DNA of 64,000 bases. Origin: Mesodorylaimus sp. YZB2_4. Taxonomy: Eukaryota > Nematoda > Enoplea > Dorylaimida > Dorylaimidae. A program made the position numbers and the translations under genes. The stretch is taken from positions 248,001 through 312,000 of the forward strand of contig JASANH010000863.1 of the NCBI GenBank assembly GCA_030248295.1, read 5' to 3'. The notes under the pieces were generated by a model, which searched no databases, was not told the origin of the DNA, and worked only from the letters and a program-made list of their open reading frames with translations. Each line of letters begins with the position of its first letter. Position 1 is the stretch's first letter. Below, piece after piece: positions 432 through 44,313 of this stretch.

Positions 432-477
432 GCAGCAGTACAAGTCATTTCTGATCAGAAAACCAATAGTCGGATGA
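432..477 (+). CDS. Secreted amidated-peptide precursor family, copy 1, last exon only
   Basis: This 46-bp exon follows a TTTTCAG acceptor. Read in phase 2 it gives QQYKSFLIRKPIVG and then TGA. It matches, in length, phase and sequence, the last exons of three complete genes further along the same strand (9856, 15596, 18726). The conserved Gly before the stop is the usual donor for peptide C-terminal amidation. The signal-peptide exon is not in the window. The 3' flank resembles that of copies 3 and 4 (for example the CACAAGC and GAGTTCA words), so a whole segment was duplicated. A gypsy element is inserted 217 bp after the stop codon. I do not recognise the family. Confidence 0.72.
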
Positions 478-694
478 ACGATAATGACTGAGTTAACGGG
501 GACACAGCACACGGTGGTGGGGGATCTGAAGAATACGATATGATAACGTCACTCTATAAATGTCGACATGCACATGTATTTAGTTTCGCGTTCACAAGCA
601 CACACTGTATGTTACACACACGAGTAGAGTTCAACATGCCCCTATCTCGTTTGCCCATGTCCATACTGTATGTGCGAGTATGCTCATAATTTAC

Positions 695-894
695 TGTCAC
701 GGTAGAGTTCGTATCTCCCGCATAGATATCATATAGTGTAGCGTGCGTTAGTGTAAGGCTTGCTCGCCAGGGCTACGGCCAGAGCAGGCGACCGGTGTGA
801 TGTATGGGAGAACCGTAATATAATTCTCGTCTAGTGCGGTTGGCCTCGAGATTGCTCTTCTCCACACGCGGTCACGTCGGACGGCAACGTGACA
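695..894 (+). repeat. 5' LTR (200 bp)
   Basis: Begins TGTCAC and ends GTGACA, a short inverted terminal repeat. It differs from the 3' LTR at three sites (GATATC versus GATGTC, AAGGC versus AAAGC, TACGG versus TACTG). Confidence 0.95.
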
Positions 895-898
895 TTTC

Positions 899-916
899 TG
901 GCGAGCTTGGCAGGAG
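899..916 (+). promoter_or_regulatory. Candidate primer-binding site
   Basis: A TGG-initial stretch (TGGCGAGCTTGGCAG) begins four bases after the 5' LTR, where a tRNA 3' CCA end would pair. The donor tRNA was not identified. Confidence 0.35.
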
Positions 917-1285
917 GCCGAGGAGCGGTGGAGGAGAGTTGTGGCTAGAGTGGCGAACTCGTAAGTCGAGTTGGTTTTGGGCGTTAGAAAGTGATTGTTT
1001 TTGATTGCCGTGTAAGGTTTACACGTGCGGAATATTTGCGACCGGTTCGGTCTGCGGAATACTGCGTTTTCACGGGCAGCTGTTGGATTACGGCTTGCGG
1101 AGTACCGTGCACACGGGCAACTACGGATCGTAGTTTGCGGATTACCGTGGTGATCGCAGTCTGGAGTGACTTGCGGAGTGCGTTTGAGTGTGCACGAACC
1201 TGGTAGGGTCATTGTGTCCTTTAAGTAGGCTATTGGGTGTTTGGTGCTTCGAAAGGTGCCGTGCAGAAAGGTTTCGTTCGCAAGA

Positions 1286-2629
1286 ATGGCTGCAAAATTT
1301 AGTATCACGTATGCGGAATTGCGTGAAAAGTTACCTCCTTGGGTGAAGAAAGAGGTGTTGAAGGCCTATTGCGATGCCAACAACGTGAAGGTCTTGGCCA
1401 CGGCTACGAAGCAGGATATGGTAGACGAACTCGGCAAGGCTATCTTTGTTGGATTGGACCAAGATGCTGCGCACGGAGGTGGCAGCGGGGAAAGTACTTG
1501 GGAAACGGCCATGATTGATTTCAGCCCATACATGACTGAAAGTACGAGTAAAAAGCCGCCAAAAGGAGACGGAGAGTATGGGGGAGCGGATGAAGTGCCG
1601 GGTAAGGTGGCGCCCATGATGAATCCGCAACGTCCACGCCTGGATCAAGGCGATGGTGGCACAGGTTTTGCTCAGATGATGATGCAACAACAGGCCATGT
1701 TCTTCGAGTTCCTGTAGAAACAACAGCAGAGGCAGGACGAGGACAGGCGCCGCGAAGCTGAGGAACGGAAACGCCAGGAAGAGAGGCAATTGGAGCAGCA
1801 TAAGATGATGCTGGAACAGATGCAGGCTTTGACTGTTTTGATTCGGTCACCGCCGCAGGCTGGTAGTACGCAGCCAAGTCAAACGTCTGTAGTATCCCCG
1901 TCTGTGAATCTGCCAGGTTTAAAGATCGCAGTGTTTTCGGGCGACGTTGAAAAGATAGACCCATTCGAGTGGTTGGAGACTTTTCGTACGTATAGTACGT
2001 TAGGACGGTGGTCCGTCGCTCAAGTCATGGAGGGTATCAAAGTGTACCTCACGGGCGAGGCTTTAGCCAAGTGGAACGAGTTGACTGATACGGATAAGAA
2101 TTCTTGGGAACGTGCAACGGCCGTATGGCTGGAAAAGTTGCTCGGAGAGAAAAGGTCGCTTTTCAGAGTGCAGTTAGCTGCCCTGAAGCAGGAAAATCGT
2201 TCAGTCGCCTGGTATGCACAAGAATTCTTGCGACTGGCAAAGTTGGCCTCATTTACGGCTACGAACCAGACGGTTCGGGATAATGACTGGCCTATATGCG
2301 AAATGTATGTCGCAGGATTGCGCAACACGATTCAGAAAGAGGTTCGCAGAGATAACCCGGATAGGTTATCAGTGGCGAGGGCGATCGCGGAAAGAGCCGA
2401 GTCATGCTCTACTCTGTGTGGCGAGATAGTGGTGAAGCAACGAAATGATAGCCAACTCTCGCATGTCGGAGAAGCCAGGAATGGTAGTACAAACGACAGG
2501 GCCTGCTACCGGTGCGGACAGTTGGGTCACATAGCACGAGCATGTGTGGATCGCAGAAACGATCACGCGGGTGGTCAGCACAGGTCTCGTAGTAGTTATC
2601 CGCAGCGAAATGGCCGGAGGGAGTTTTAA
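1286..2629 (+). pseudogene. gag of the gypsy element, interrupted by a TAG stop
   Basis: The frame opens at an ATG (1286) with a short alpha-helical N-terminal region (PPWVKKEVLKAYC). It meets TAG at 1715-1717 and stays open in the same frame to TAA at 2627-2629. After the first stop come a Gln/Glu/Arg-rich coiled-coil stretch, a typical retrotransposon gag capsid core (DPFEWLETF, KWNELTD, WLEKLLGEK) and one zinc knuckle, C-x2-C-x4-H-x4-C, at 2504-2545. The family role is packaging of element RNA. The two in-frame stops could be decay or, less likely, readthrough sites: the frame also stays open past the second stop through an Arg/Ser/Gly-rich region into the protease. Confidence 0.85.
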
Positions 2630-3334
2630 AGCAGTAGAGGACGACATAGTCCAGGTCACAGAGACCAGTACGGTCGAGGACGACGTTTTTCGTCTCGGGA
2701 AAATAGTAGCAACAGTTACAGTCGTGTTAACTATCAGAATGATCGCGGACGGTCGGTTGACCGGAGGCGGAGAGTCAATTCCGTTTCGGATGACGGCTCG
2801 CGATCCGAAGAATATGGTGAGCAGAGTGACGAGTGCCAGGGGTATCGCCACGATGAGGGCCAAAATACGGTTGGCGGAAGGTGTAATACAGTGCTGGGCA
2901 TGCACAAGGATGCGCCGCATAGAGGATCGGCACCAGTTTCGCAGGAGGCGAATGCAGTAAAACGGAAAATTGGTCAGTTGAGTTACGTGTTATGCCAGGT
3001 TAATGGGCAGGACGTACCCATGATGCTGGATAGTGGCGCTACCGTAACCCTGATAAGCAAGGCAGTGGCGGAGAAAATCATACTGCGTAAAGATTGGAGG
3101 CCTAGTTCGACTAGCCCGAAAGGTCTAGGTGGAGACGGCACGCTAGAAATCGAGGCAGAGGTTGGAGTTGACCTCAAGGTTGGTTCGATAGTCGAACGAC
3201 ACGTAGTGCTGATATCGAGCACGATGGGTGGAATATCTTGGGCACAGATTTTACAGGCCCATGCCATAGCGAGCGGTACAGGTACTGTGCAGATTTGTTG
3301 CACGCTCAGGAAAAGCAGGGGCTCGTGGGAGTAG
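2630..3334 (+). pseudogene. Gypsy protease region, frameshifted
   Basis: Same frame as gag after its TAA. An Arg/Ser/Gly-rich linker is followed by a retropepsin-like segment with the active-site signature LDSGATVTLIS (about 3025-3060). Family role: cleavage of the Gag-Pol polyprotein. Towards the end the expected ILGTDF-type motif (near 3235) appears in a different frame, so there is at least one frameshift before the frame ends at 3334. No intact protease can be read. Confidence 0.8.
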
Positions 3335-4773
3335 TGTTGAGCTCTGAGTGCTCTGTGTATGTGTGCGCCGACGTTGTGATTCCGGCGAGGAGCGAAATAA
3401 TAATTGAGGCTGAGCTGCGAGCGCTGCCCAATGAGGTATCTGTTGACCAAGGGTGGTTGGAACCCAGTACGAACGTAGGAGCGGAAAAGAGGCTATTTGT
3501 GGCTCGTTCGTTGGTTAAACTGAAGGGAGACGGCCTCGTGCCAGTGATTGTAGCTAATACAGCTACGGACGATAAGGTATTGCATAAAAATACGCGAATC
3601 GGCCAGCTCACGGTCATCGATAAGGGTGACCAAGTGGTGGCAGCTTGCGGTTCTGCCGAGGGTAAACCGGTGTCCATTATGGACCCAATCGCGAAGATCG
3701 ATTGGAGGGAGTCAGAGTTTACTGAGGATCAACGGAAATGCGTTGTTAGCGTATTACGTCAATACGAAGATGCTTTTGCTAAGCATGAAGGTGATATCGG
3801 AAAGACGACGTTGCTACAACACAAAATCGTGTTGACAGGGGCGCCTCCGCCCAAGATGAGAGCCCGGAGAATACCAGAGGCAGTGAAACCAGAGGTTGAG
3901 CGGCAATTGAAGGTGATGCAAACGCACGGTTGGATCAAACCGTCGTGCAGCCCAGTATCGGCTCCGCTAGTTATAGTGCCAAAGAAGGATGGAGGCACTA
4001 GGATTTGTATCGACTTCCGGGCATTGAATGCTGTAACGAAGAAGGACTTGTACCCTATGCCACGCGTAGATGAAGCGTTGGATGCGCTGGGAGGTGCGAA
4101 GTGGTTCACGAGTTTGGACCTTCAGAGTGGGTACTGGCAGGTACCACTAAGCCCAGAGTCACAAGAATTGACGGCATTTTCAGCGCCAGGCGGGCAATTC
4201 GAGTTCACAGTAATGCCATTTGGATTAGTGAATGCGGGTGCGACCTGCGAACGACTACTGGAGATGGTCCTATCGGGACTGCAGTGGGATCACTGTTTGG
4301 TGTATATAGATGATATACTGATCTACAGTAAAACGTTTGACGATCACTTGCGGCATATCGGCAATGTGTTTGATCGGTTGGTGAAAGCGGGCTTGAAGGT
4401 TAAGCCATCAAAATGTCACTTCGCGAGGGCTGAAGTACCTTTCTTGGGTCATGTAGTTTCGAAGGCCGGAATTCACATGGACGAGAAGAAGGTTCTATCG
4501 CAGTGCAGAAGTTCCCAGGGCCACAGAATTGCACGGTGGGTGTACCAGTTGTCGGAGTACACATTTGATGTGGAACACGTGCCAGGGAAAACCAATGTGG
4601 TGGCAGATGCACTTTCTCGAAGCCCAATGTGCATGGGTTGCACAGTGGCCTTAAAAGACGGCGGGAAGAACGGCAGTGGAGTTGTCAGACCAGACGCTTC
4701 AGGAAGCGCAAAGGGCAGATCAGTTCTGTCAAGCGTTAATCGAGTATTTGGAGCGGAAAATGTTGCCCAATGA
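3238..4773 (+). pseudogene. Gypsy reverse transcriptase with most of RNase H deleted
   Basis: The RT core is well preserved: PLVIVPKKDGGTRICIDFRALN, SLDLQSGYWQVPL, MPFGLVNAG, and the catalytic YIDD at 4303-4314, followed by LGHVVSKAGI. Near 4490-4540 the reading changes frame and jumps directly from the post-thumb QKFPGPQN-like region to the very end of RNase H (EHVPGKTNVVADALSR). The roughly 200 residues that normally carry the catalytic RNase H core are missing. This copy cannot encode a working Pol. Confidence 0.9.
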
Positions 4774-5479
4774 CCCGCGGGATGCGAGACGGCTAAAGAA
4801 GCTCGCGCTGAGCTTTAGGCTCTCAGACACGGGAGTATTGTTGCATTTACCCCTGGGGCAGGAACGGAAGAACGATGACTGGATACAGATGGTAGTTCCA
4901 TCGTCTTTGCAGCGCGTGGTGTTTGACGCATTGCACGGTGATGCTATGGCAGGTCACCTGGGTTTCACGAAGACCTTTGTCAAACTGAGACAGCGGTTCT
5001 TTTGGCTTGGCATGTACAAGGACACTTTTCGTTGGTGTCAGAGCTGTCTACCATGCGCCAAGAACAAATCGTACGGCCAAACGGGTCGGGCACCCTTGAA
5101 GCCACTGTGTGTGGAGAATCCGTTCGAGTTGGTAGCGATTGATGCCATGGGCCCACTCCCTACGGATAGGGATGGCAGCAAGTATGTAGTAATCGTGAGC
5201 GATTACCTGACCAAGTATATCGAGACGCTCGCTGTGCCAGACATCAAGGCAGCGACAATAGCCCAGATCTTGGTAGACAAGATCATATGCCGATGGGGAG
5301 CACCGCGACGATTGCTGTCGGACAGAGGGGCTAATTTCACCTCGGAGTTGGTGCAGGATGTTTGCGAGGCGTTGAGTGTCAAACGATCCCTAACAGTGGC
5401 TTACAGGCCTCAGACCGATGGTCAGGTGGAGAGAGTGAATCGCGTGTTTCGCGATATGCTGAGAATGTACTGTACGTAG
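4676..5479 (+). pseudogene. Gypsy integrase, HHCC and DDE core, stop-truncated
   Basis: The frame holds an H-x4-H ... C-x2-C zinc-binding domain (HGDAMAGHLGF, CQSCLPCAK) and the catalytic core: D in AIDAMGPLP, D in LLSDRGANF and E in DGQVERVNR, spaced as in retroviral-type integrases. The frame ends at TAG 5477-5479 soon after the catalytic Glu. The continuation lies in another frame from about 5545, so a frameshift separates the core from the C-terminal domains. Confidence 0.88.
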
Positions 5480-5544
5480 ACCAAGATCACCAGGATACTT
5501 GAAGTGGTTTTGTTCCGTTTGCCCGATTCGCGTACAATACGTCA

Positions 5545-6324
5545 GTGCATGAAGCGACGGGTGAGACTCAGTTCTTTCTGATGCATAGTTTTGATGCACG
5601 GCTGGTGATCGATACGGGCATCTCGAGTGCAGCTAACAAATTTGGCAGCGCGATCGAATATCGCGAGAACGTGGTGCGGCAACTCGAGCGAGCTCGGAGG
5701 CTTGCTTATGAGAGCATAGAACGAGTGCAGGAAAAGCGTAAGGACGGTTATGACAAAAGTACTAAACCGGAGAAGGAGTTTCGGGCTGGTGATATGGTAA
5801 TGTATGAGCGGATGCATACACCAGCGGGCTTATCGTCGAAGTTGTTGGGCTCCTGGATTGGACCCTATCGTGTCACGCAAGTGATATCGGCGCACAACTT
5901 GATTATCCGTCGGCAAGGAGGATTAGTTGGCGAAGAGAAGCGTGTTCACGTAGGGCAGGTGAAGCAATATGTGCCTGAGGTGGAGAGGCCACGCAAACCG
6001 AGACTGCTGAAAGTGGGTGATGCGGTGTGGGCCAAGATGAAGTACCATCCGTACTTGCTGGCACGCATCGTGGATGAAACGGAATTCCCAGATAAGAGGC
6101 CTATAAAACCGAATTGGGTTCGAGTTCACTTCTTTGGCGAACAGAAGTACGGGCTAGTCGAGCGGGATAACGTCTTCGACTACATGCAGCACAAGGAGGT
6201 GTTAGCCTCAAGGGCGGCAGGTGTACCTCGAGCTATGCAGGCTGCGGACAGGTACTTGGCAGAGGAGAAAGACACGCGCAGTCGTGTAGTGTCTGTACGA
6301 GAAAGGCGGAAGTGGGTGCGATAG
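5545..6324 (+). CDS. Gypsy integrase C-terminal part: GPY/F module followed by a PWWP-like domain
   Basis: 259 codons in a frame different from the integrase core. The first part (AGDMVMYERM, GSWIGPYRVTQVIS, RVHVGQVKQY) is the usual GPY/F module of Ty3/gypsy integrases. Chromoviruses carry a chromodomain at this point. This element instead has about 60 residues (6010-6195) that read like a PWWP domain: KVGDAVWAKMKYHPYLLARI, then WVRVHFFGEQKYGLV and DNVFDY. These match the beta-barrel pattern GDLVWAKMKG-P-WPA-V ... FFG ... LFPY of LEDGF/HDGF-type proteins. The aromatic cage is altered: Leu stands where the second W of PWWP is expected. PWWP domains read methylated H3K36 and DNA, so a targeting role is a natural inference. 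A basic tail (VRERRKWVR) ends the frame. Confidence 0.78.
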   Translation: MHEATGETQFFLMHSFDARLVIDTGISSAANKFGSAIEYRENVVRQLERARRLAYESIERVQEKRKDGYDKSTKPEKEFRAGDMVMYERMHTPAGLSSKLLGSWIGPYRVTQVISAHNLIIRRQGGLVGEEKRVHVGQVKQYVPEVERPRKPRLLKVGDAVWAKMKYHPYLLARIVDETEFPDKRPIKPNWVRVHFFGEQKYGLVERDNVFDYMQHKEVLASRAAGVPRAMQAADRYLAEEKDTRSRVVSVRERRKWVR

Positions 6325-6450
6325 GAAATGAACACGTCCGATCAAACTCAGTGATGGATGTCAATCGAGATGACCGACTTACGACGTCAGTGATCATGAT
6401 TTTTCGGGTTCGATATTGTATGTGGTTTGAGTAGGTTTTTCGTGTAAACT

Positions 6451-6464
6451 GAGGGGGAGGTGGA
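6451..6464 (+). promoter_or_regulatory. Polypurine tract
   Basis: GAGGGGGAGGTGGA directly abuts the 3' LTR, the place and composition expected for the plus-strand primer. Confidence 0.75.
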
Positions 6465-6664
6465 TGTCACGGTAGAGTTCGTATCTCCCGCATAGATGTC
6501 ATATAGTGTAGCGTGCGTTAGTGTAAAGCTTGCTCGCCAGGGCTACTGCCAGAGCAGGCGACCGGTGTGATGTATGGGAGAACCGTAATATAATTCTCGT
6601 CTAGTGCGGTTGGCCTCGAGATTGCTCTTCTCCACACGCGGTCACGTCGGACGGCAACGTGACA
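6465..6664 (+). repeat. 3' LTR (200 bp)
   Basis: Direct repeat of 695-894 with three substitutions, followed by the TTAC target duplication at 6665-6668. Confidence 0.95.
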
Positions 6665-8821
6665 TTACCACATCACAAAGCATTCGATGTCCACACTATT
6701 CCACACGAAACAACTTGCCGTTTACATGGCACAATAATCGAAGCTATAAAGATCGTGAGCATGCTGCGCACGTAGAGTGACATCTGGTGTCGCTCGACGC
6801 AGGAAATTATCAACACTTCTAGATCTTCTGACATTATCCTCCAAGCGGTATCTCGCGCGATTTCATGTCGCAAAAGCGATGTGGACAGCACTGCCGGGGC
6901 CTGTACCCATTCATAATGACACGGAACCAGCACTTGTGGGCAGTCGGGAGATCAATACTCTCCCCTTGGCAAGAAGATATCAAACCGCTCTGATCGTGAG
7001 TCTGAATTTGGGTAAATCCTCGCGAAGTGCTTCAGAGAAGATGTACCACATTCGACTGCCCTACTAGAAGCGGCAAATCGATATACGCTGCAGTACAGAC
7101 AGGCAAACTGCACTGGACTTACGATTAGTAGTACAGTCCTGTTGCATAACGGATGGTTTTACTGAGGATGGGACCAAAATTCTTAAGTTTATTCGCTTAC
7201 GATTAGTATCCACAAGCTTTCGGCTTCAATATGGACGGCGATGCAGCACTAATATGCGGCACTGCATGATGCGCCTACCAGACCTTTTGCCATTGGGTCG
7301 GATAAATCGAAGAAACATGGAGGTGCTGTCAAGATCCGCTTCAGCTCACGATGTCCAGATCGTTTGCATGCATGCTGCCAGCATCTGCGGGCAGACACTG
7401 AACGCCGCGTTCTCCGCGACGTTTCAGGTAGTTCATTAATCTTGTACAGTACATCTCGATTCCTCCTAATCATTGCTTGCTGGCGGAAAATCTGATTATT
7501 TCGTGAGCTTTTCCACTGCACCAGCGAAGATTTCCTGTCGCATCCTATTTCTTGAATTGGTGGGGGAATAATGTCAGAATCTTAAGATATGCAAATTATG
7601 TTTTATATCTGATCAGCAATATCCGGATGATCATGTTTGAGAGTGAGTATCTTCACATTGTACAGAGGCATCACAGTTAAACTTGGTGGCAGACTAACTG
7701 GATGACGGGAAGACCAGCGCTCTGAATTAGATAAATCACGTTTTCATGAAAATGCTGTAGGAAGTTTCTGACGCTCAAGCCGTCCATTTGTGTTCATGTT
7801 TATGTTTGACTCATCACCCAACGAATGTAATCGCTCTTGAATGTGAAGGCAAGCAGATACACGAAATGATTTCCCGCAACACACAAACCCGCAAGATAGG
7901 TCTCACGAGTCAGTTGATCTTCGTGGATGAAATTTCGGGAAAAAAAGCGAACTTACGGAGAGTTGAGGGCAAATGTCTTTTTGAGGGGCAACAGTTATTA
8001 TTATCCTGTTAAGGATTCTGCCAAAAGGAAAACTTTTGGTAGTTTGATTATGAGGAGGGTTTTATGTATCTTCTTTCACTTGCAGTTTTTCTTACGCTTC
8101 ACATTTTTTAACTCCTTTAGTTGTTCTGGCCTTTTAGCGAGAGCTCAACAAAGCGAGACTCAAAATTTCCAATAACCGTGATTCAAGTCCCCTTAGCTCG
8201 AAAATTCGCGTGATCGCTTTGTTGGCACCATGACTATACCCATGTTTGGCACCGCGCAGTTGAAGAAACGCAGGCAACAAAACCCCCGCGAAATTAAAAA
8301 ACTTGTTCGACGAATGTGGTTTGAGTTTTGTTCCAATCGCTTTTTTGCAGGAATCAACTTTGAACACATGAAAATTTTGTTTGGCTTTTATTTAAAATTT
8401 TGTTTTGCTCCCGTTGTCTTCATGAAATGCAGATGTAGCTGTCGTCCGTATAACTGCTTACATTGCAAAGATCCTATTATAAAACGTTATAGAAAGGATT
8501 CATTCTTATTCGGCATTGACAATTTTATGGGTTGAGCGGGCTCATTACTCAGTGGGCGGGAATTCCGTCTTTTGTCTCGATTGATCTGCAGAGAGGGTCC
8601 ATAATGGAACCCCTCTCCTCATTGGCAATAGGCCGCCTTACCGCTCAACATGCTGTACATCAAAACAAGATTAGTCGACCTGCAAGGCTTATTTGACTCG
8701 TGCTTGAGAGGGCCCCTTTGTTCCAGCGTCGATGCAAGTGCAACAACTATGCAGCCTAGCCAATTGATGCTATTTGCAGATTGTTCTCATTGTTTTATGT
8801 TCTTGAAAACGAACGACTCTA
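6665..8821. other. Intergenic flank of peptide gene copy 1
   Basis: No convincing gene. Positions about 6770-6930 (GTGACATCTGGTGTCGCTCG onwards) resemble about 19660-19830 downstream of copy 4 (GACGACATCCGGTGTCTCTTG), showing that the duplicated unit includes long 3' flanks. The short ORF at 8230-8535 has a Cys-rich end (CRCSCRPYNCLHC) but no other coding support. Confidence 0.5.
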
Positions 8822-8976
8822 AGAACCCTCTCCTGTTACTCGTACTTCCCCACAAAGCACCTCAGACATCTTTTTTCTATAAGCAGTGCATCAACTTGTA
8901 ACACCACAGTACATACACCAGAGTTTCTTTTTCTCAGTCAGGTCTCGGGGGGCGGATGCATCTGAGGGGGCCAACG
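8822..8976 (+). repeat. Left arm of an inverted repeat bracketing peptide gene copy 2
   Basis: From AAGAACCCTCTCCTGTTACT to GGCGGATGCATCTGAGGG the sequence is a close reverse complement of 10109-10270. The peptide gene at 9339-9901 lies between the arms. Confidence 0.75.
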
Positions 8977-9338
8977 TTAACAACTAGGTGTCCCCTATTC
9001 CCACATACAGTATTGTTCATGCCTCCCCTAGATTGCCTAACAATGCTCTACACAATATCAAAAGACCGCCTACTTGACGCCCGTTTCAAATTGATTGGGA
9101 AAGACGAATAGGCGATCTCGTTAGAGACAGCGGGTGGGCTAAATTCGTGAACTGACAGATGCCCTGTGCTGTTGATTTTCAAGGATGAAACAGCCCCCCC
9201 CGTGAGTCTTAGCATTGTCCATGGGGGCGAGAGGACTCTAATTGGCCCCATCCTCTCTTCTTGATTTTGCCAGTTACTGTTCACTCAAATTTTTACCTTC
9301 GCTGCCGACAGTCGTGTCATTTCTCGCATCTTTCAGGC

Positions 9339-9901
9339 ATGGCTTATCACGATCGCAATCTCGCTGCTCTGCTTTGCATCTTCTGCCTTAGTACCGTGTG
9401 TATGGTACGCATTACGGAAGCGAGAACTTTCAGAATTTGTACATCGCCCTCTGGCCAACATGCGAAATGCTGGACGGTGGCCACTGGAGGAGAAGGTCAA
9501 CAGGACACACAGCCTACCAAGTACGTACAGTGGAAGGAAGAGCGGACAGAATGAGTTCCAGCGGCAGCCCAACCACTCTTTGAGTCCTTGTAGCCAGAAA
9601 AATGGCCTACGCTCGTGTTTTCGCAGCTCAGAAAAATTCTCTTATAAGGCCTGACAGGCGGGAGTACTTCTGGATGTTGAAACTTTTTAGAACCCAGTTC
9701 ACCTCAAATCGATGGGGTGCAATACCAAACCTATGGCATGTGAACATGCACACTATCTCTGATCTACTATGATACCACCCATTTGAAAATACCGTAGTCA
9801 AATCACAAAAGCGTGAACATGGCTTACAAAGCGCCACATTACCTAATAATTTCAGGCCGCAATACAAGGCGTTTCTGATAAGAAGGCCGATGCTAGGATG
9901 A
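9339..9901 (+). CDS. Secreted amidated-peptide precursor family, copy 2
   Basis: Two exons: 9339-9520 and 9856-9901 (donor AA|GTACGT, acceptor TTTCAG, phase 2), 75 codons plus stop. Residues 1 to about 28 form a signal peptide (LAALLCIFCLSTVCMV, then ITEA). Next come RTFRICTSPSGQHAKCWTV with a C-x9-C loop, a hydrophilic Gly/Gln/Thr-rich linker, and an end reading QYKAFLIRRPMLG-stop. The only two Cys of the mature part can form one disulfide loop. The terminal Gly would allow amidation. A plausible acceptor (CATCTTTCAG) ends two bases before the ATG, so a 5' leader intron or trans-splicing is possible. It is the most diverged of the three full copies. Family unknown to me; a secreted signalling or defence peptide is inference. 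Confidence 0.75.
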
Positions 9902-10108
9902 AGATACAACCGCCGCCGACCTGAAAATAAGATATTTTGTTATTTAAGATATGTCGATATAAGAATATTTGTTTGGCGGAGAGCGTAACGCACTCACAGA
10001 AAGGTAGAGAGAGGCATGTGCTCGTACTGTACCGTAAAACTGTTGTGCCACAAAGCTGTGCTCTCAATGCCGCAGCTGTTGTAATCCTGGTGCCCTCAGG
10101 CTCTCTTA

Positions 10109-10270
10109 GATGCATCTGCCCCCGAGACTCTGGAGAGAAAAAGACTCCCGAGACCCCTGAGAAAAAGAAACTCTTGTGTATGTACTGTGGTGTTAGAAAT
10201 TGATGCACTGCTTATACAAAAAAGATGTCTGAGGCGCTTTGTGGCGAAGTACGAGTAACAGAAGAGGGTT
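10109..10270 (-). repeat. Right arm of the inverted repeat bracketing copy 2
   Basis: Reverse complement of 8822-8976. Shared words include AGATGCATCTGCCCCCGAGA, ATGTACTGTGGTGTTA and AGATGTCTGAGGCGCTTTGTG. Confidence 0.75.
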
Positions 10271-10880
10271 TCCAATTTTCCATACGACACACTAACCTGC
10301 TGTGTGGATGGGGAATTAGAGTTGTCAGTTCAAGTTGCTTAAGGGAAAAATTTTGTCCGAGTGTCAGGAATCATGAAAGTATTCCATGATCCAGTTCAGC
10401 CAGCAAGAAGAGTAAGAGAGAATATGGCAAACCTTCGTTGTGCACACACAGCCTCATCGTGTGTGGTTGAATCCATCTTGCATAAGACGTCGGATGGAAC
10501 CGAATGCCATAAAATTGCTTGGCCATACTGAATTTGGTATCCTGCGAATCATCCAGGGGTGAATGGTTTTGCCCAATACTTGAGAATTTTATCAGAAATA
10601 TGTTGCAGTACGCTTAAACTCAATACCTTGTGTGGATACGAAGGCTATCCCATCAACCACGGCACCTAAATCCAATGTTCGACCCCTCGTCACTTCCGCT
10701 CTGACTACCACCGCTCTTTCTACAAAGTGTATTGCGTAATACGTATGTGACCCATGGTATCTCTACACTTGCGTGTCGGTCATCAATGTAGGGTCGCCAA
10801 TGTAAACATCTCATGCCTGTAACAGGGACCATCCTACATCAATGCCCAATGCCTTCTTCATCCTGGCATTGGGCCCGCTA
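10271..10880. other. Intergenic, nothing recognised
   Basis: No open frame with coding character, no repeat that I could match inside the window. Confidence 0.4.
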
Positions 10881-11204
10881 TCACAGGGTCCGCTCTTCGG
10901 CAAAGGCGTCTTCCGGGGATGCGTTGACGATCTTCAGGGCTTCCTTGATTCTATCCATCAGCAGTCTCTTTGGTCGGCCTCGGGGCGGTGGCCTACGCGG
11001 TCGAACCGTGTGGCTGTATTGGCACTCCGGACTAGGTGTCCATACTGTGCCGTAGTAGACGCGATTCGAGCAATGTCTCTTTGATAGTGGTCTCCTGGCC
11101 GCTTCCGAATGTCCTACTTTACAATGCGATCCCATTGCGTGATTCGCAAGCTCTATGGGCGCATGCTTCTCCATGGTATTGAGGGCATATTCGTAGATGG
11201 ACAA
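10881..11204 (-). pseudogene. C-terminal remnant of a LINE (RTE-like) reverse transcriptase
   Basis: About 107 codons end in RPRRPPPRGRPKRLLMDRIK, EALKIVNASPEDAFAEERTL. The motif G-R-P/R-P-R-G-R-P-K ... W/L-x-D-x-I-K-E followed by an acidic helix and an A-x-x-E-R/D-R segment is typical of the extreme C-terminus of RTE/BovB-type LINE proteins. The RT core is absent, so this is a 5'-truncated copy in the minus orientation. Confidence 0.45.
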
Positions 11205-11440
11205 CGCAGGCTAGTATTCTGTTGAACAGCACTGTCAAATGTCGGTTCCCCAAGGGCCAGGAAGCTTCAAGACTTCAACTGGGAACTTCAACATCTGGTC
11301 CAATTGCTTTGTCATTCTTCATTTCCTTTGCGGTCAGTTACACTTAGGCCGGTGTAAAAGGCGGAACAAGTCCGGGCACAAGGGGCGCTCTCGATTGGCG
11401 GGTGTGTGAATTCTTGCTTGCTGATCTCAAAGAAGTACCG

Positions 11441-11913
11441 TATTCCCTCGAAATTCCCCCCCCCCCCCCCCCGCGAAATCCTCCCAGTCTGGTTATTCTT
11501 CCCCGTCTAGACCCCGATTGAACTTTTTTCTCCCCCCTCTCTGGAAATCCTCCCCTTGGGCGATTTTGAATTACCGCGCAAAATCACAAAATCATATGAG
11601 TGTCACGTGATAGGAAATATTTTTTTTGGAGGGTCAGATGATGAAGATAAGGTTGAAGACGATGAACGTCGTGCATATTGATTGAATTCGGTTATGAGCA
11701 GCATGAATGCGAGAAGAGAAGTATTGAAATTAACAAAGTTAGCAGTACTTGTTGCGAAGCTTTAGACTGTCTATCTTTCTATTATGCCGTCGGGAAAATG
11801 TTTGAATTTTATTCTCCCCCCTCTGGAAATCCTCCCACCTCTCGTTATTCTCCCCCGTCTGGTACTAATTTGAAAAAATTTCTCCACTGGGGAAATATGA
11901 GGAAATATGGTAT
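11441..11913 (-). repeat. Interrupted copy of the CCGTATTTCC MITE
   Basis: Starts TACCGTATTCCCTCGAAATT and ends GAGGAAATATGGTA. The inside (CCCCGATTGAACTTTTTTCTC, then TTCTCCCCCGTCTGG) is the reverse complement of the compact element at 52750-52922. About 240 bp of unrelated sequence and a small duplication (about 11565-11810) split it. A 16-base C run lies at about 11458. Confidence 0.65.
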
Positions 11914-14267
11914 TCGCTCCAACGCAAGTAGGATGGCGGGCGGATCACGTAGGACCTCGAGATCGTCGTCCTTAATGCCTTTGATCTGTCCAATTTTTTG
12001 CGTAAAACGGTGGCGCGCATTCGGTAGGCAGTAGATCATGTTTGCCCCTTCTGGCGTGTCGAGGTTGGCAATGCCTACTTTCGTCTTGCTGCAGCTTATT
12101 TCGAAGGCACCTGTTCCCCACCAGGTTACTTGCCTTGCGCTTCAAAGTTTAGACCCTCCCTCCAAAGCTTTCCACTTTCTATATACTCACAAGGTCGACC
12201 GACAAGAGGGTCGTTCGTGGGAACCTATTGCAAGCTCCCTGACTTGCTGCTCCCGATATTGCGCTCTGAGCTTTTGGAGCATATGCATTATATCCTTGGA
12301 GCGAATAATAACCTGGGAATCTAGAGGAAAGATGTTACGACTTTCCAAAACACATTGCATATATACGCACAGTATGCATGCGCAACTCGGAATATACTGT
12401 AGCTTCTGTTGTCCGCCTAGTCCTCTGACTCATTGTCAGATTGAGGAATACGAGCATGGACGTCAGAGTTTCTCACGCCAAGATATGCCGTGAAATTATA
12501 GAGAAGGTGTGCCAAGAAAGCAACTATGATCTGGGGATGTTTGTGCTTCAATCAGCGAAACGTGCGTCACGAGAACCAGATGCCAGCCTGTTTGGCTCGA
12601 AAACAGGATCTGCGGAGGCTATTCATAGGCTTTGTATAAAACCATGTATCAAGGTTTAGAGAAATTCTTCATGACAAACAACGACTCACCTGTCACAAGA
12701 CCTGGGCTGACCAAAAGTGCCACACAATCATAAAAATGGACGCTCTATCCGATGGTGTGCTTATCTTCATACTGCACTGGCGCGTTCCTCTATCCCATAT
12801 AGCCCACAATGTCTTGCCCATCGGGCCATCGATATTTTGTCTCTCCAAAGAGATGACCATAGCAGGATCAGATGCCACCTTTTCTGTTTGGAGGCTGCTT
12901 CTCCATTGGCTCAAAGTGTGGATTTCTTCCCTCGTATCGCTTTGGCGTTGTGCGTCAATAACTGAGGATCTGATTCACGGAGGCCTAAAGAATGATCCAG
13001 TCGGCTCCGCGGGCGCCTGTCGAAGTCATACAGCGTGAGTGGCGAGACATATTTAAGTCTGCCAAGTGCGCAATATGCTGTCATAATTAGCACCCGGTAA
13101 AGATCACATTTAATGTGCATCCTGTTATTTCTCGGTAATGACGAACATCCGGTCTATTGAGCCAAGAAAAGCGCAAACACTTTTGCTTCGTCAGCTGCTC
13201 TGTTCCCAATTAGGCTGCGGCAAAACCCGTGACTTTCTCTTGGCAACGCCCCATAATATTGCGCTTACGATTTTCGAAGGGACTCACCGAATTCTTGTCA
13301 GACGGTTTCAGAGAAACCGAGTAATATAGTCTCAGGCAAGGAAAATTAGACCAAAGGATGACCAGGTACTCTGCTGAAAAGTAAGGCTCGCATTTTTTTC
13401 AGTTGGGTGCATATCGATTCATTACTGCTCATCCTATGTCTCTTCGTCACTCACTGTGGTGACAGCGCGCTCGTTGGGATAGACTGCCTCAGGAGATGTG
13501 TGCCTCGTACCGGCACCAGCAAGCAACACTAACGTCAGTTTCTATCTTTGACCAACTGGATCTCGTGGACGTTCTGGGGACGTTCTGGTCATAAGACGAA
13601 GGTCCTCGATACGAAGATACGAAGCAAACGAGACAGAGACAGAAGTGGCATCAACAAGCAGCGCCATGGAGCCGTCATTAGCAGAGATGACATCATGCAA
13701 CTAATCGTATGTGATGCAAAGACTGGCGTTCACGAGCCAAGCGTTGATGGCCAGGGCAGCGTGACTGCGTTTCTGGGTCTCATACGCCATGGAAGGCACA
13801 ATATTGCCAGTGCTATCGTCACTCTTCCTCATGTTTATCTTTTTCCTTCTTGTGAAATTTGTTCAGGATGCCGCAGATTTCGGCTACATGAATTGTCGGA
13901 GGCCCGAACCGCTGGGCCAGGCACAGGCGACCAGTTTCGAGGTATGAGCCCCAACAGATACCTTTTTAGCGTGAAAGCTTTCTTGAGGGCCAGTCGCTTA
14001 TAGTTGAAGTTAGAGTCTGGATTTTGCTCAGTCTATTCCTTCGGGAAGTGTCTAACGTCGTGTCTGACTAGTTCGCGCTGCAAAGGTCGAAAGAGCCTTC
14101 CGCAGGCGATATTGGCAGACGCACTTCCAAACTGAAGACGTTAATGCCAACACATGACTAGGTCTGATATGACATGCGTTTCCGCCCTCGACGATTTGGA
14201 GTAGATGGCAAAAGCATTCCATTGGTCCTCTTCACAAGTAACTGGACGCCACACTGGCCCGTCAAAC
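11914..14267. other. Intergenic region and promoter of peptide gene copy 3
   Basis: Only short frames with no recognisable protein. The last 110 bp (14159-14250: GGTCTGATATGACATG, TTTCCGCCCTCGACGATTTG) match the sequence upstream of copy 4 (18221-18265), so the duplicated unit includes a putative promoter. Confidence 0.45.
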
Positions 14268-15641
14268 ATGATCTTTCACAACCACAAGCTGGCTGTCCTA
14301 CTTTGTATCGCCCTTGTCGGCACCATGGTCATGGTTGATTTTACCAAAGGGAGGACCGTGAGAATCTGCACATCGCCTTCGCGGAAGAATGCAGAATGCT
14401 GGACGGTAGTCGTTGGAGAGAATGGTCAGATGAAGGCCAAGCCAGGGAGGTAGGAGACAATTTACTCCTTGTGATATTGCATGGATGGTGCAGAAGCAAT
14501 TTTTTTTTTCAAATTTTTTTGGACCGAAACCCGTTTTGCCTATAGCCAGCCAGCAGTCAAACCTTGTAGGCAAGGCTATGCGGGGACCAGTACACACAGC
14601 AGCGTCCCTGTGCGTGACCACTAGAAGCACCTGCACGCGAGGGCACCGCTTCTGAGGACCACGGCGGGCGGGCTGTGAACCTGGTCGGTGTTCGACAGCC
14701 GAGACTGTCTAATCGTTTGGCTCCCGTCTCTCCACTCGGAGCAACTCTTGGGTATCAGGTGAGTCACCCACAGCCTGGCGTGCAAGGTCAGCGAGGGCTT
14801 ATGGTTCGCACCCGATCTCCGTCACTGAGGATCGAACCTGGGACGAGTCCAGCCACTCGCTCCCAAGCAATACGGAGAGACAATGCTGACACGCTGCACC
14901 ACCGCGGGCGTAGATTGCTTCTCGTGGGCGAAGTGCGCCTCTTGGAGCACCTCGAGGGCGCTGGGTGAGTCACTCACGGCCCAGCATGCAAGGTCAGCGA
15001 CGGTCACTGGGGATCACCCATGATTGAACCTGGGACGAGCCCAGCCGTACTACCAACCATGCATTACGGCTAGACAAATGCTGACCACTCTGTGCCCGCT
15101 GATATTCAAATCTTGGCCGCGTCAGTGCATGGGTAGCTTTTATGCGAAACTTCTATGATTCGAATAATAGGCCTGTTATTCGTATTCTTCTGCAACTTTG
15201 ACTTGGTTTAAAAGAGAGGTCGAGTGGATACTGTAGTTTTGCCTGCACTGAATTGGTGTTTTACACGAGCCTCAGAGCTACTGGAACCTGAGTGACTCTG
15301 CTGCAGCACCGACGGAGATTTGGCGAACTATGAGGCTCCACGAATATTGTCCCCTTGCAAGATGCAGTTTGGCACAAGCTCAATGCGTAGCGGGGTCTGT
15401 CTGCGGGGCCTGTACGAGCAGACTTGGTAGGCCATGTCGAGTAGGAGAGTTTTCTATGTCTAGAGGGATGCCCATACCGCGGACATGCTATAGTCAAGAA
15501 TCGCACCGGAAGTTCAGTATACTCCAGCAGAAAAGTGGAGCTTGATTGCGCACTTTCCAACTGGTCCAATTTTGAAACGACCTTGTTCCTTTCAGGCAGC
15601 AGTACAAGGCGTTTCTGATCAGAAAACCGTTGGTGGGATGA
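14268..15641 (+). CDS. Secreted amidated-peptide precursor family, copy 3
   Basis: Exons 14268-14449 and 15596-15641 (donor AG|GTAGGA, acceptor CCTTTCAG, phase 2), 75 codons plus stop, the same exon lengths as copy 2. Signal peptide LAVLLCIALVGTMVMVDF, then GRTVRICTSPSRKNAECWTV with the C-x9-C loop, a Lys/Gly-rich linker, and QQYKAFLIRKPLVG-stop. The ATG is taken by alignment with copies 2 and 4: an upstream in-frame ATG at 14205 would add 21 residues ahead of the signal peptide and is not supported. The intron is long (1146 bp) because a tRNA-derived SINE and a fragment of another are inserted in it. The coding parts remain intact. Confidence 0.8.
14498..14918 (-). mobile_element. tRNA-derived SINE in the intron of peptide gene copy 3
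   Basis: About 400 bp in minus orientation. The right end carries pol III promoter-like boxes when read on the minus strand (a TGGTGCAG A-box region near 14900 and a GGTTCGATCC B-box near 14835). The left end is T-rich, i.e. an A-rich 3' tail. It shares most of its length with 22600-23006 and 43913-44313. Confidence 0.75.
14935..15107 (-). repeat. Truncated second SINE fragment
   Basis: Repeats the GGGTGAGTCACTCACGGCC ... GCAAGGTCAGCGA ... GAACCTGGGACGAGCCCAGC segment of the adjoining SINE without its 3' half. Confidence 0.6.
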
Positions 15642-16374
15642 ACGACAGTTGCCAAGTCAATGGGCATACAGTACGCCTAGGTATCGGGCATCCGAAAAAT
15701 ACGAAATGAATGTCGTTATACATATTCATATTTCTAGTTATATAATAACCGCAAGCACATGCTTTAAACACAAGCAGAGTTCAGTATGCCCGTATGTCCT
15801 GTATCGTGTCGCACAAGCGAATGCTTATTTGTGTTTTGATTGTTCAGTGTATTTGTCGGTTCACTTTGACCTAATCGCGAACCTTGAGTTGATGACAAAC
15901 AGCAGATGACCACAGTAGATGAGTTGCAAACAATTAGGTCTCCAACGAGACAAGTCTAGAGTGCGCCTGTCGACCGATCTGCCGATCTGCCGACCTGTAC
16001 CGTCTACTCTCCCGCATTTTCAGCCTGCGTAATTTCTGAGTAATTATTGTTAAGATCTTATGAAGACATCATTTCCGAGCAATATCTGACGTAGACCACC
16101 ATTTCTAAGTAAGACTGATAAAGTCCTTCATAAGAGCACATACGATATGAGTCCAGGTCTACAAAAACTAGTAAGAAGTAATAATTTCTTAGTAACGAAA
16201 CCCTTTAGCAATTTCAAGCTAAGATTAAATAAGTTCTTGTTAGGATTACTGTTTTTTATGCCACATTTGATTTGGTAATACCTATAGGTAATTATTATGA
16301 GGATAGCTAAAGTGTTGTTAAGATTACTTTCCTGACTCGCTTCACATACTTAAATGTTTAAAAAATTGCACTCA
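15642..16374. other. 3' flank of copy 3
   Basis: The first 250 bp resemble the 3' flanks of copies 1 and 4 (CACAAGCAGAGTTCAGTATG, then a cluster of TGTGTTTTGATTGTTC-type words). The rest is AT-rich with no gene seen. Words such as AATTTCTGAGTAATTATT recur in inverse form near 17205, so 16030-17215 may be one inserted element. Confidence 0.4.
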
Positions 16375-16878
16375 CTAATTATGTTCAAACGTCACACATT
16401 CCTCCACAAATACAGTAAAATCAGAAAACTCGACCAATAAACACCGTCTTCTTAAATGCTCCAACTCAAACACCCGAGATACGTCAGAAACTTCCACTAT
16501 GCGATACCCTTGGCTATTAGACTCACTATTATGAATTTCCAAATCAAGCAGAATTCTGTCACTGCACTTTGGAATCATATCGATTAAACAGCCAACAACC
16601 CGGAGCTCTCTACATAATGCGAAGACACGATCAAACCGCAAAAATATTTTGTCGATGAGTGCTTAGCATACCATATCCAGCTCCAAAAATTCACCAACAT
16701 GGGTGCACATGTTCTTTCCAAATTCAAAAACTCTGCTATTTATGACCATCGAACCCACCTTCACAGATGCAGCAGTTAACGAACTGTCCAACTTCTCTCC
16801 AAAGGCCAATTCAATGGCAATGGATTCACTGACGTTCAGTTTAGTCATTTCAGTTTTTGAAAGTGGCTTAACTGACAA
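16375..16878 (-). pseudogene. Unidentified degenerate coding frame
   Basis: Two minus-strand stretches lie in the same frame: 16878-16663 (SVKPLSKTEMTKLNVSES, IAIELAFGEKLDSS) and 16641-16375 (RFDRVFALCRELRVVGCLID, ending CVTFEHN), split only by one TAA. Together about 165 codons with amphipathic, protein-like composition. I do not recognise the family. It may be a pseudogene or a gene whose short intron holds the TAA. There is no clear ATG. Confidence 0.3.
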
Positions 16879-16879
16879 A

Positions 16880-17619
16880 AAATTTGTTGTTCGATTCTAT
16901 CCCTGTCGATTGTTTTTCATTCTTCTTTTACCTCAGCCACGATTTTATAAATTTTTCTTGGGAAAATCTTCTTGGGAAATCGATAAGTCAAAGTACGACA
17001 AATTTGGCAAAGGCGAAGATGAGCACTAGCTTAGAGTCGATGATTATTGCTTGTTTCAAAAATGTTGCTTTTCGACGAAGGTAGTCTAGAGCCTTTAAAA
17101 TAAGATAACCAGCGCTTTGCTTATGTCTAAAAATAAAAATAAATACTGTATGCCTATAGTGTCAGATTAGGGTCAGAATAACTAGAAAAAAGATTTTAGT
17201 TAGAAATTACTCAGAGCTGCTAAGATATTGTTCATTTTTCTTAGTAAGTAAATATATTTTCAGTCTCGATATTAATAAGTCTACCCTAAAAAACGACATT
17301 GCTCCTAATAAGAAAATTCCTCAGAACTTAGTCGGAAATCAAAAAGAAGTGAGTGCGGGCGTTTGGCTCACGCACGATCCAAATAATCAAATTTGGGATA
17401 AGGAAACGCGCGTGGCAGTATGCAATACTAATATGAAATATCTTCAGAAGAGAATGTCACTTCGACTGGAGAGTGGGAAAATGAAATTGAAGCCGCTTTA
17501 GCCCAATGGAGCACCTGCGAGCACCCCGTACTATGCGGTGATGCTCACCCCTGTCGATAACTCCACATTTTGTTGCATTGTCTTTTCTAACATTTTTTTG
17601 GGTTAGGCAAGAGCCGCCC
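16880..17619. other. AT-rich intergenic sequence
   Basis: No supported gene. The right part carries CTAAGA/TTACTCAG words that echo 16020-16200. Confidence 0.35.
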
Positions 17620-17945
17620 CAGTTCCATCTAACTGGTTTTGCTATATGATATGGTGACCAGCTCTCATGGCAGCGTCCACTAGGAGCACCACCACGTGAG
17701 GGCATCCTGGACTGGACAGACTTCCTCGGACGATGGCGGGTGGGCTGTGAACCCTGTCGGTGTTGGACAGTCGAGACTGTCTCCTCGTGTAGCTTTCGTC
17801 TCCCCCCATCCCTAGGGCGCCTAAACGTTACTGGGTGAGTCATCCACGGTACGGCATGCAAGTTCAACGAGTATTATTGGTTCTCAAACCGACGTCCATC
17901 ATCGGGGAGAAAACCTAGGATCAGCCAGCCCCTGCAACACTCTAC
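17620..17945 (-). repeat. Partial tRNA-derived SINE
   Basis: Shares GGCGGGTGGGCTGTGAACC, GTCGGTGTTGGACAGTCGAG, CTGGGTGAGTCATCCACGG with the full-length SINEs but lacks a good A-box end. Confidence 0.6.
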
Positions 17946-18399
17946 CGGAACACCCTCGTGTCCCAAATTTTTATCTCTTTCTTTCTGCGAATGGAGTTAT
18001 TCCAGCTGCCGCATTTTCTATGTCTTGCATCCTAGGATCGTGTACCCCTACTTTTATGTGGCAAAAAATCTATTTTTTGGAGGTACTCAGCAGGACGGGA
18101 ATTTTACATCTGATGAACGCAGATACAGTATGATCGTGTCACTTACAGCAGTTAGAAACTCCCGCAAAGGGGATTGGGAGGAGCGCTCAAAAGAGAACGT
18201 TCATGCGAACTCAATGATTAGGCCTGGTATGTCACGAGTTTCCGCCCTTCACGATATGAAGTGGGTGGAAAAAACTCTGCCGGTCACGTCTTCATGAATA
18301 ACATCAGAAGCTGTCGGTGCCCGTTGATCGCGGACAGCTCCTCACTCTTACCCCTGATTTTGCTGCTCATAGTCGGGTCACTCTTACCAGCTGTCAAGC
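17946..18399. other. 5' flank of peptide gene copy 4
   Basis: Contains the duplicated upstream block shared with copy 3 (18221-18265) and a possible acceptor (CTCTTACCAG) ten bases before the ATG. No other gene seen. Confidence 0.4.
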
Positions 18400-18771
18400 A
18401 TGCTTTTCTTCAACCATAAGCTCGCTGCCCTACTTTGTGTCGTCCTTGTCGGCACCATGGTCGTGATGGATTTCACCGAAGCGAAGACGGTGAGAATTTG
18501 CAGTTCGCCCTCGCGAAGCAATGCAAAATGTCGGACGGTGGTCATTGGAGAAAACGGTCAGAAGGCCCAGCCTGACCAGCGGGAGTAAGTCCTGATTAAC
18601 ATACAGTAGGTCAATGGTGCAGTAAAAGCTGTGGATGTATTTTTGCTACTCACGATCAGACATGACTGGACTACTGTCGCACGGAGTGGGGGCAGCGGCG
18701 TAAACTATAATCTCATTGCTTTCAGGCAGCAGTATAAGGCGTTTCTGATCAGAAAACCTGTGGTGGGTTGA
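18400..18771 (+). CDS. Secreted amidated-peptide precursor family, copy 4
   Basis: Exons 18400-18584 and 18726-18771 (donor GGGA|GTAAGT, acceptor GCTTTCAG, phase 2), 76 codons plus stop. Signal peptide LAALLCVVLVGTMVVMDF, then AKTVRICSSPSRSNAKCRTV with the C-x9-C loop, GENGQKAQPDQRE linker, and QQYKAFLIRKPVVG-stop. The Trp after the second Cys of the other copies is Arg here. At 141 bp the intron is the shortest of the array and probably closest to the ancestral form. The start is fixed by alignment of the signal peptide with copies 2 and 3. Function unknown; one disulfide loop plus an amidation-type end suggest a peptide hormone, venom-like or antimicrobial peptide, none of which is shown. 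Confidence 0.82.
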
Positions 18772-22545: not shown

Positions 22546-22599
22546 AAGGCCAGCGACGGGCTTAAACTGCAGTATTCAGTAATATACTGTATGTGCATT

Positions 22600-23006
22600 T
22601 TTTAAAAAATTTTTGTGGGCCGTAGCCCGATTTGCCTTTAGCCAGCCAGCAATCAAACCTTATAAGCAGGGCTTGCGGGGACCGGCAGCAGCGTCTCTCT
22701 GCGTTTCTCTTATGGGAACGCACGCACGCAAGGGCATCCTGTACTGCACACCGGCTTCCTCTGATGATGGCGGGTGTTCGACAGCCGGACTGTCTCCTCG
22801 TTTGGCTTCCGTCTCTCCACTCGGAGCACCTCGGCGGTACCGGGTGAGTCACCCACCCACCCACGGCCTGGCGTGCAGTCAGCGAGGGTTTATGGATCAC
22901 AAACCGACCTCCGTCACCCGGGGATCGAACACGGGACGAGCACAGCCACTCGCACCCAAGCAATACGGAGAGACGAATTCCGGACTGCTGCACCACTGCG
23001 GCCGCA
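22600..23006 (-). mobile_element. Near full-length tRNA-derived SINE
   Basis: Minus orientation: right end GCACCACTGCGGCCGC (A-box side), B-box complement near 22920 (GGGGATCGAACACGGG), left T-rich tail. Ends and order agree with 43913-44313. Confidence 0.75.
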
Positions 23007-38336: not shown

Positions 38337-38689
38337 GGGTTCAAGAAATTCCAAATAATCCATATGACCGATAAAAAATGCTCCCGTCCCGAGGTTGAAT
38401 TGACTCATGCGAGATAGCTGGAGATTTTACATGAAGGCTCTCTGCGGTGCTGGATATGGGCAGAAAATCTTACTAAAAACCCTTGAACACGAACCTGCAG
38501 TTATGGCTACCTGCGCCCTTTTATGCGAAAATCGAACATGCGCTTTTTCGCAAGGAACACGTGTCTGCCTGCCTGCTAACATTGTCTGCGCAACTTGGCG
38601 CTACCGCCAGCGGATTCTACAGAACGTAGAAAATCAAAATATTGCGCATTAGTCATCTTGCGTGGTGCCCAAACGTACCCAAACGTAAA
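38337..38689. other. 5' flank of the NERD-helicase ORF
   Basis: No gene seen. The frame of the downstream ORF stays open back to about 38642 without an ATG. Confidence 0.4.
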
Positions 38690-43912: not shown

Positions 43913-44313
43913 TTCTTTATTTTTTTAATGTTTTGGGCTGGAGCCCGTTTTGCCTACAGCCAACCAACAGTCAAACCTTCTAAGCAAGGCTGTACAGCGT
44001 CCCTCTGTGCGTCTGCACTTAGAGCACCTCCAAGCGAGGGCATCCTGGACTAGACACTGGCGGGCGGGCTTTGAACCCTGCCCGTGTTCGACAGACGAGA
44101 CTGTCTCATCGTTTGACTCTCGTCTCTCCACTCGGAGTACCTCAACGATAGGTACTGGGTGAGTCACCCACACAGCCTGGCGTGCAAGGTCAGCGAGGGT
44201 TTACGGTTCGCAAACCGACCTCCATCACTGGGGATCGAGCCTGGACGAGCCCAGCCACTCACTCCCAAGCAATAAGGAGAGACGAATGCCGAACCGCTGC
44301 AGCACCGCGACCA
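43913..44313 (-). mobile_element. Full-length tRNA-derived SINE with a perfect 17-bp target duplication
   Basis: Flanked on both sides by CATCATCAAATAGTTAT (43896-43912 and 44314-44330), which fixes the 401-bp element exactly. Read on the minus strand it begins GGTCGCGGTGCTGCAGCGG, with an A-box-like start and a GGCTCGATCCCCAG B-box about 80 bp in, and ends in an A-rich tail. The long target duplication indicates LINE-driven target-primed insertion. Confidence 0.88.

Follow-up and report, generated by a model that had tools for sequence, protein, structure and literature searches.

A multigene family of putatively secreted, apparently amidated peptides in a dorylaimid nematode

Introduction

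Amidated secreted peptide families are of a known general kind, and several described systems resemble the one considered here, a set of small genes noticed as a tandem array in 64,000 nucleotides of DNA from the nematode Mesodorylaimus sp. YZB2_4 (hereafter the window: bases 248001-312000 of contig C49, in an assembly of 145 Mb and 1067 contigs). Each of these genes appears to encode a hydrophobic start, a loop between two cysteines, a linker and a conserved tail that ends in glycine. No known family appears to match them, and the signalling function that we prefer for them is unproven. The comparisons below refer to 23 gene models drawn across the genome.

Nematode FLP genes are also a multigene set in which a conserved amidated C-terminal motif follows a variable N-terminal part. 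However, none of our models has a C-terminal RF-Gly (RFG occurs only within the loop, in two of the 23), and each precursor carries one tail, a two-cysteine loop and no conserved dibasic sites. Calcitonin/CGRP-type hormones likewise combine an N-terminal disulphide loop, a linker and an amidated C-terminus, but the loop of the new family has 8-9 residues, its tail is unrelated, there is no pro-region with dibasic sites, and the calcitonin profile is absent from the five Pfam families matched at E<=1 by 17 members. Nematode allatostatin-C-like neuropeptide-like proteins (NLPs) share the small secreted precursor with one two-cysteine loop. Their (K/R)NC(F/Y)F motif, which the available part of PMC8764417 gives for five of its new genes only, occurs in 0 of 23 models, and here the loop lies near the N-terminal end, with the glycine-ending tail after it.

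Among nematode antimicrobial peptides (AMPs), the CS-alpha-beta, diapausin, nemapore and glycine-rich groups are also small, secreted and organised in gene families. As given in the available part of PMC10506718, CS-alpha-beta and diapausin peptides have at least six cysteines, nemapores three disulphides and the glycine-rich GRSP group 17-74% glycine, whereas the mature part of our models holds one to three cysteines (two in 20/23) and 4-11% glycine. Finally, two members weakly resemble GPR15L (PF15854) in Pfam, with E 0.0055 and 0.03, but the scores, 17.4 and 15 bits, lie under the cut-off of 27, and the matched part is mainly the hydrophobic N-terminus.

Results

Three two-exon genes and a lone last exon in the window

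The array was preliminarily described as four same-strand copies in which a phase-2 intron precedes a last exon of 46 bp. This holds for copies 2, 3 and 4; copy 1 consists of a last exon only. The parts are as follows.

432..477, + strand: copy 1, orphan last exon encoding (R)QQYKSFLIRKPIVG-stop; a match to the tail pattern
9339-9901, + strand: copy 2, whole two-exon gene
9339..9520, + strand: copy 2 exon 1, 182 bp; hydrophobic signal-like start, RICTSPSGQHAKC loop, linker
9521..9855, + strand: copy 2 phase-2 intron, 335 bp, GTACGT...TTTCAG
9856..9901, + strand: copy 2 last exon, 46 bp, PQYKAFLIRRPMLG-stop
14268-15641, + strand: copy 3, whole two-exon gene
14268..14449, + strand: copy 3 exon 1, 182 bp; signal-like start, RICTSPSRKNAEC loop, linker
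14450..15595, + strand: copy 3 phase-2 intron, 1146 bp, holding repeats also present elsewhere in the window
15596..15641, + strand: copy 3 last exon, 46 bp, QQYKAFLIRKPLVG-stop
18400-18771, + strand: copy 4, whole two-exon gene
18400..18584, + strand: copy 4 exon 1, 185 bp; signal-like start, RICSSPSRSNAKC loop, linker
18585..18725, + strand: copy 4 phase-2 intron, 141 bp
18726..18771, + strand: copy 4 last exon, 46 bp, QQYKAFLIRKPVVG-stop

All four last exons end in QYK[AS]FLIR[KR]P-x-x-G-stop, and the window contains four matches to the tail pattern, for which 100 shuffles give an expectation of 0.00. Neither tblastn nor a profile search found a convincing first exon for copy 1 in the 20 kb upstream in the contig, where the best tblastn match (E 0.03) lacks the family's form. 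Because the longest intron of the 23 models measures 1467 bp, copy 1 is best read as an orphan last exon and not as a gene truncated at the border of the window.

At least 33 first-exon places in the genome

Protein searches of the genome established from the DNA that the array belongs to a real multigene family, as had been proposed, with at least 33 first-exon places on 14 contigs (C49 3, C299 4, C232 1, C157 2, C115 2, C97 1, C106 2, C10 2, C839 1, C340 3, C117 4, C171 3, C26 2 and C108 3). Every counted place had an E-value of at most 0.002 in one search or more, and the counts are lower bounds; two weak places, on C171 at 86 kb (E 0.03) and on C164 (E 0.008), were excluded. A block on C299 runs colinear with the array (identity 91-96% in the main pieces, 74-89% in the other pieces) and could represent either the second haplotype or a recent duplication, so that there are fewer than 33 distinct genes. 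The places on C839 and on C340 at 84 kb may likewise be haplotype or duplicate places.

The 23 models come from these 33 places and leave aside C232, the first copy on C115, the second copy on C171, C171 at 95 kb, C10 at 911 kb, C117 at 167 kb and at 175 kb (the latter's tail being cut by the end of the sequence piece), C340 at 84 kb, and C108 at 59 kb and 161 kb. A pattern made of the acceptor plus the tail gave 11 matches genome-wide and 0 for its reversed control. All 11 end in Gly-stop, even though the glycine was not part of the pattern; two of these matches come from C299, whose block nearly duplicates the array, and cannot be treated as independent.

Anatomy of genes and peptides

The gene structures are established from the DNA, and splicing as drawn on them is a prediction. 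A phase-2 GT-AG intron of 104 to 1467 bp interrupts all 23 models; the agreement in GT, AG and phase is partly by construction because we fitted the junctions, a reservation that applies less to the last exon's frame and to its length, exactly 46 bp in 21/23. The TTTCAG acceptors of many copies fit nematode splicing. Translation begins with ATG in 22 of the 23 models. Copies 2-4 do share hydrophobic starts and loops, as claimed for them, but the fixed C-x9-C spacing does not extend to the family: 13 models have C-x9-C, nine have C-x8-C, and one (C340b) has lost the second cysteine.

The commonest tail form is QYKAFLIRRPLV followed by glycine (in full, QYKAFLIRRPLVG); its tyrosine is replaced by cysteine in two models and by phenylalanine in one. 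Last exons could be read in 25 cases (the 23 models, copy 1 and one relic on C117), and the tail ends in glycine in every one of them, followed by a stop in 23, by Lys-Arg-stop in one and by a lost stop in one. The Lys-Arg case, C171a, thus runs Gly-Lys-Arg-stop, the classical amidation signal. Conservation in homologues of both the Gly-stop and the cysteine spacing had been named as the test of the preliminary description: the glycine is conserved, the spacing not strictly so.

With the mature start placed by us, the predicted mature chain has 46-48 residues including the glycine and carries a net charge of +4 to +9 in all 23 models. The tail is retained even in members that are only 25-36% identical overall to copy 3. 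The junction residue before it is K or R in 11/23. We considered that the tail might be freed alone by dibasic cleavage and rejected this as a general rule, there being no conserved basic pair before it; for the same reason the tail is probably not released alone.

Not all copies are intact. On C299 one copy has lost its stop and another its start codon; on C115 the start of one copy is gone and no tail could be located for it; the C117 relic lacks a proper acceptor. Lost starts, a lost stop, a lost second cysteine and orphan exons among the copies indicate birth and decay in the family.

An invariant glycine and a slow tail

Codon changes were counted by parsimony, using a tree built from the nucleotides of the 23 models. 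The glycine codon underwent 0, 0 and 7 changes at its first, second and third positions, all of them silent; by our own arithmetic, the chance of seven silent changes out of seven if changes were spread evenly is (1/3)^7, about 5e-4. The first cysteine codon and the tail lysine codon each show 0, 0 and 5 changes, and all remaining columns listed have amino-acid changes, the start column only through one lost start. The glycine is invariant in the DNA and its codon has changed only silently; amidation of the residue before it, as had been supposed, is predicted.

Rates were pooled over eight of nine close pairs, C157a-C157b being left out of the pool. The dN/dS ratio (omega) is 0.32 for the mature region (bootstrap 0.20-0.49), 0.46 for the signal and 0.28 for the loop, and the mature regions are under purifying selection. 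Pooled over eight paralogues, dN is lowest in the tail (0.15, against 0.31-0.46 elsewhere). The tail is therefore kept, as the array had first suggested, in the sense that it is the slowest part; its dN/dS nevertheless cannot be told apart from that of the other parts, since dS, too, is lowest there (0.51), and by these ratios stronger protein selection on it is not provable. Part of the sameness of the tails may come from gene conversion. In contrast, the idea of a kept signal beside a free linker has to be given up, since signal dN (0.46) is not below linker dN (0.37).

Between the window array and C299, gaps not being counted, coding differences amount to 6/228, 11/228 and 2/231 for copies 2, 3 and 4, below the corresponding intron differences of 27/318, 117/1036 and 7/135. 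For copies 2 and 4 coding divergence also lies clearly under that of comparable flanks (the 3' 300 bp flank of copy 2 was dropped on account of an insertion). Across copies 3 and 4 together, 10.5 non-silent changes stand against 2.5 silent ones, so that amino-acid changes are not depleted, in line with the damaged copies on C299.

Searches for relatives

A set of 5.8 billion proteins gave no match at E<=1, either to a single copy (2 candidates) or to a 17-sequence alignment (976 candidates); because this search relies on shared 5-residue words and dorylaims seem thinly sampled, its outcome does not separate a dorylaim-restricted family from an unsampled one. Sequence and profile searches of PDB returned nothing except one chance match (E 3.4), and NCBIfam a single match, again by chance. 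Pfam scans (three members at E<=10, 17 members at E<=1) yielded only sub-cut-off matches, to KYNU_C, GPR15L, DUF4627, DUF7227 and Sex_peptide. The N-terminus of transferrin, which came to mind as an origin of the loop from its C-x9-C start, was rejected, since the same scans gave no Pfam transferrin match. In viral contigs 44 stretches fit a pattern, and none was confirmed. The expectation that no known family would match thus stands for Pfam, NCBIfam, PDB and the protein set.

In a body of 5.39 million open-licence papers the strings 'QYKAFLIR' and 'KAFLIRRP' were not found, nor, in the accessible portions of that literature on dorylaims, nematode neuropeptides and amidated peptide families, was any description of the family. 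The same holds for the available parts of the two nematode surveys, PMC8764417 (NLPs) and PMC10506718 (AMPs), which describe no such layout, and for those of PMC11315170 and PMC13195034, which do not describe the family; the word stem 'dorylaim' is absent from the AMP survey.

Discussion

We propose, with a probability of roughly 55%, that the genes form a lineage-specific dorylaimid multigene family of small secreted, cationic, amidated peptides with one disulphide. Each gene would give rise to a signal peptide and, directly after it, a cationic mature chain of about 45 residues, in which an N-terminal loop (C-x8-C or C-x9-C) is closed by one disulphide and followed by a variable linker. The terminal glycine after the conserved tail would then be turned into a C-terminal amide via the PHM/PAL route. 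Less certainly, the amidated tail would bind a receptor and the peptides would serve as hormone- or neuropeptide-like external signals, the loop and linker conferring specificity on each paralogue, just as FLP genes keep their C-terminal motif and vary the rest. A slow tail that persists among such divergent members while loop and linker vary points to a fixed partner, by preference a receptor.

Several observations weigh against this proposal. The pooled omega of the tail, 0.48 (0.18-1.37), does not fall below that of the other parts, and individual pairs rise above 1 through a small number of changes (C340a-C26a mature 1.35, C115b-C97 tail 4.37, c3-C299a signal 1.59). Copy 3 differs from its C299 partner by 4.8% in coding sequence, nearly as much as in the 300-bp flanks (5.4-5.7%). 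Across the 23 models no dibasic cleavage site before the tail is conserved, unlike in most neuropeptide precursors, and the putative signal peptide is a hydrophobic N-terminus seen by eye in alignments. As to the amidating enzyme, matches in the genome above the curated cut-off to the Cu2-monooxygenase domain PF01082 (best E 4.4e-30) speak for the proposal, but this domain covers PHM and also other, non-PHM copper monooxygenases. The Gly-Lys-Arg end occurs only once and might have arisen accidentally when a stop shifted. Finally, many and decayed copies fit a redundant defence or secretion family equally well.

This last point leads to the rival that survives best: the copies could be divergent antimicrobial or defence peptides, cationic, amidated, tandemly duplicated and secreted onto the cuticle or into the gut. 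We regard it as possible, clearly behind our own proposal. The positive charge of every mature part and the clustering of copies with birth and decay would suit such a role, and PMC10506718, in the part available, suggests that divergent AMPs of clade 2/I nematodes were missed by its pipeline; yet the cysteine and glycine contents place the family outside the AMP groups defined there, a conserved tail with invariant lysine and glycine is unusual for such peptides, and there is no general sign of positive selection.

The odontostyle with which dorylaims feed suggests another source, pharyngeal-gland secretions delivered through the stylet as feeding or host/prey-directed peptides. Gland-secreted peptides often have just such an arrangement, in which a mature chain with Gly or Gly-Lys-Arg at its end follows the signal without a pro-region, and the family is large, with no relative in the protein set searched. 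However, its mature part is overall not accelerated, with an omega of 0.32 beside 0.46 for the signal, and we consider this origin improbable. Equally unlikely is that the glycine is structural or inherited by chance, without amidation, in small secreted proteins of some other function that are partly pseudogenes, for although several copies are damaged, the glycine codon accumulated only silent changes while its neighbours vary, and one member carries Gly-Lys-Arg-stop.

Dorylaims are usually assigned to clade 2/I, together with Trichinella, Trichuris and Romanomermis. Nematodes of this clade have few known neuropeptides of the NLP type according to the available part of PMC8764417, and the most limited known AMP profile according to that of PMC10506718. 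A large, constrained family of apparently amidated dorylaim peptides would be a candidate to fill this neuropeptide or AMP gap. Taking the receptor-binding proposal a step further, we envision, tentatively, that dorylaimids may have a peptide signalling system of their own, built on a loop-plus-amidated-tail type of hormone unknown in other animals and expanded where the classical nematode neuropeptides are reduced. In any case, the family yields concrete peptides for synthesis and mass spectrometry and a profile for other dorylaims.

Neighbourhood of the array and mitochondrial fragments

Between copies 1 and 2 lies a Ty3/gypsy-like long terminal repeat element (window 695-6666), with 202-bp repeats at 695-896 and 6465-6666 that are 98.5% identical; by eye, its open reading frames (ORFs) resemble gag, protease, reverse transcriptase and integrase. 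Copy 2 is flanked by an inverted repeat pair (8824-8949 and 10147-10270, 92% identical, about 1.2 kb apart), and the colinear block on C299 lacks an equivalent of window 10095-12420. A dispersed repeat, roughly 200-400 bp long, one copy of which sits in the copy 3 intron, recurs at 14500-14910, 17656-17933, 22598-23004, 43916-44309 and 57532-57831, its copies being 66-78% identical to each other.

COX1-like fragments occur on C73, C273, C741, C47, C56, C1, C66, C225, C380 and C489, several with an internal TAA or TAG; together they suggest numerous nuclear copies of mitochondrial DNA, or contaminants. The best stretch, on the 488-kb contig C73, is free of stops when translated with the invertebrate mitochondrial code; it too could be a nuclear copy. 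Among the 120 matches listed for it from the set of 5.8 billion proteins, the closest named ones belong to the longidorids Xiphinema rivesi (81%), Longidorus vineacola and Paralongidorus litoralis (both 80%), and unnamed sequences reach 84%. By COX1 the genome is thus most likely that of a dorylaimid, though not necessarily of a longidorid; PMC13195034 names a Mesodorylaimus within the order.

Beyond the array, judged by eye, ORFs on the - strand resemble a sorting nexin with a PX domain (24218-29728) and a cluster of BTB-domain proteins (58841-60854), and on the + strand a WD40 protein (62721-63185). At 38642-41131 (+) a single intronless ORF of 829 aa combines nuclease-like and P-loop-like stretches, and is possibly mobile or acquired.

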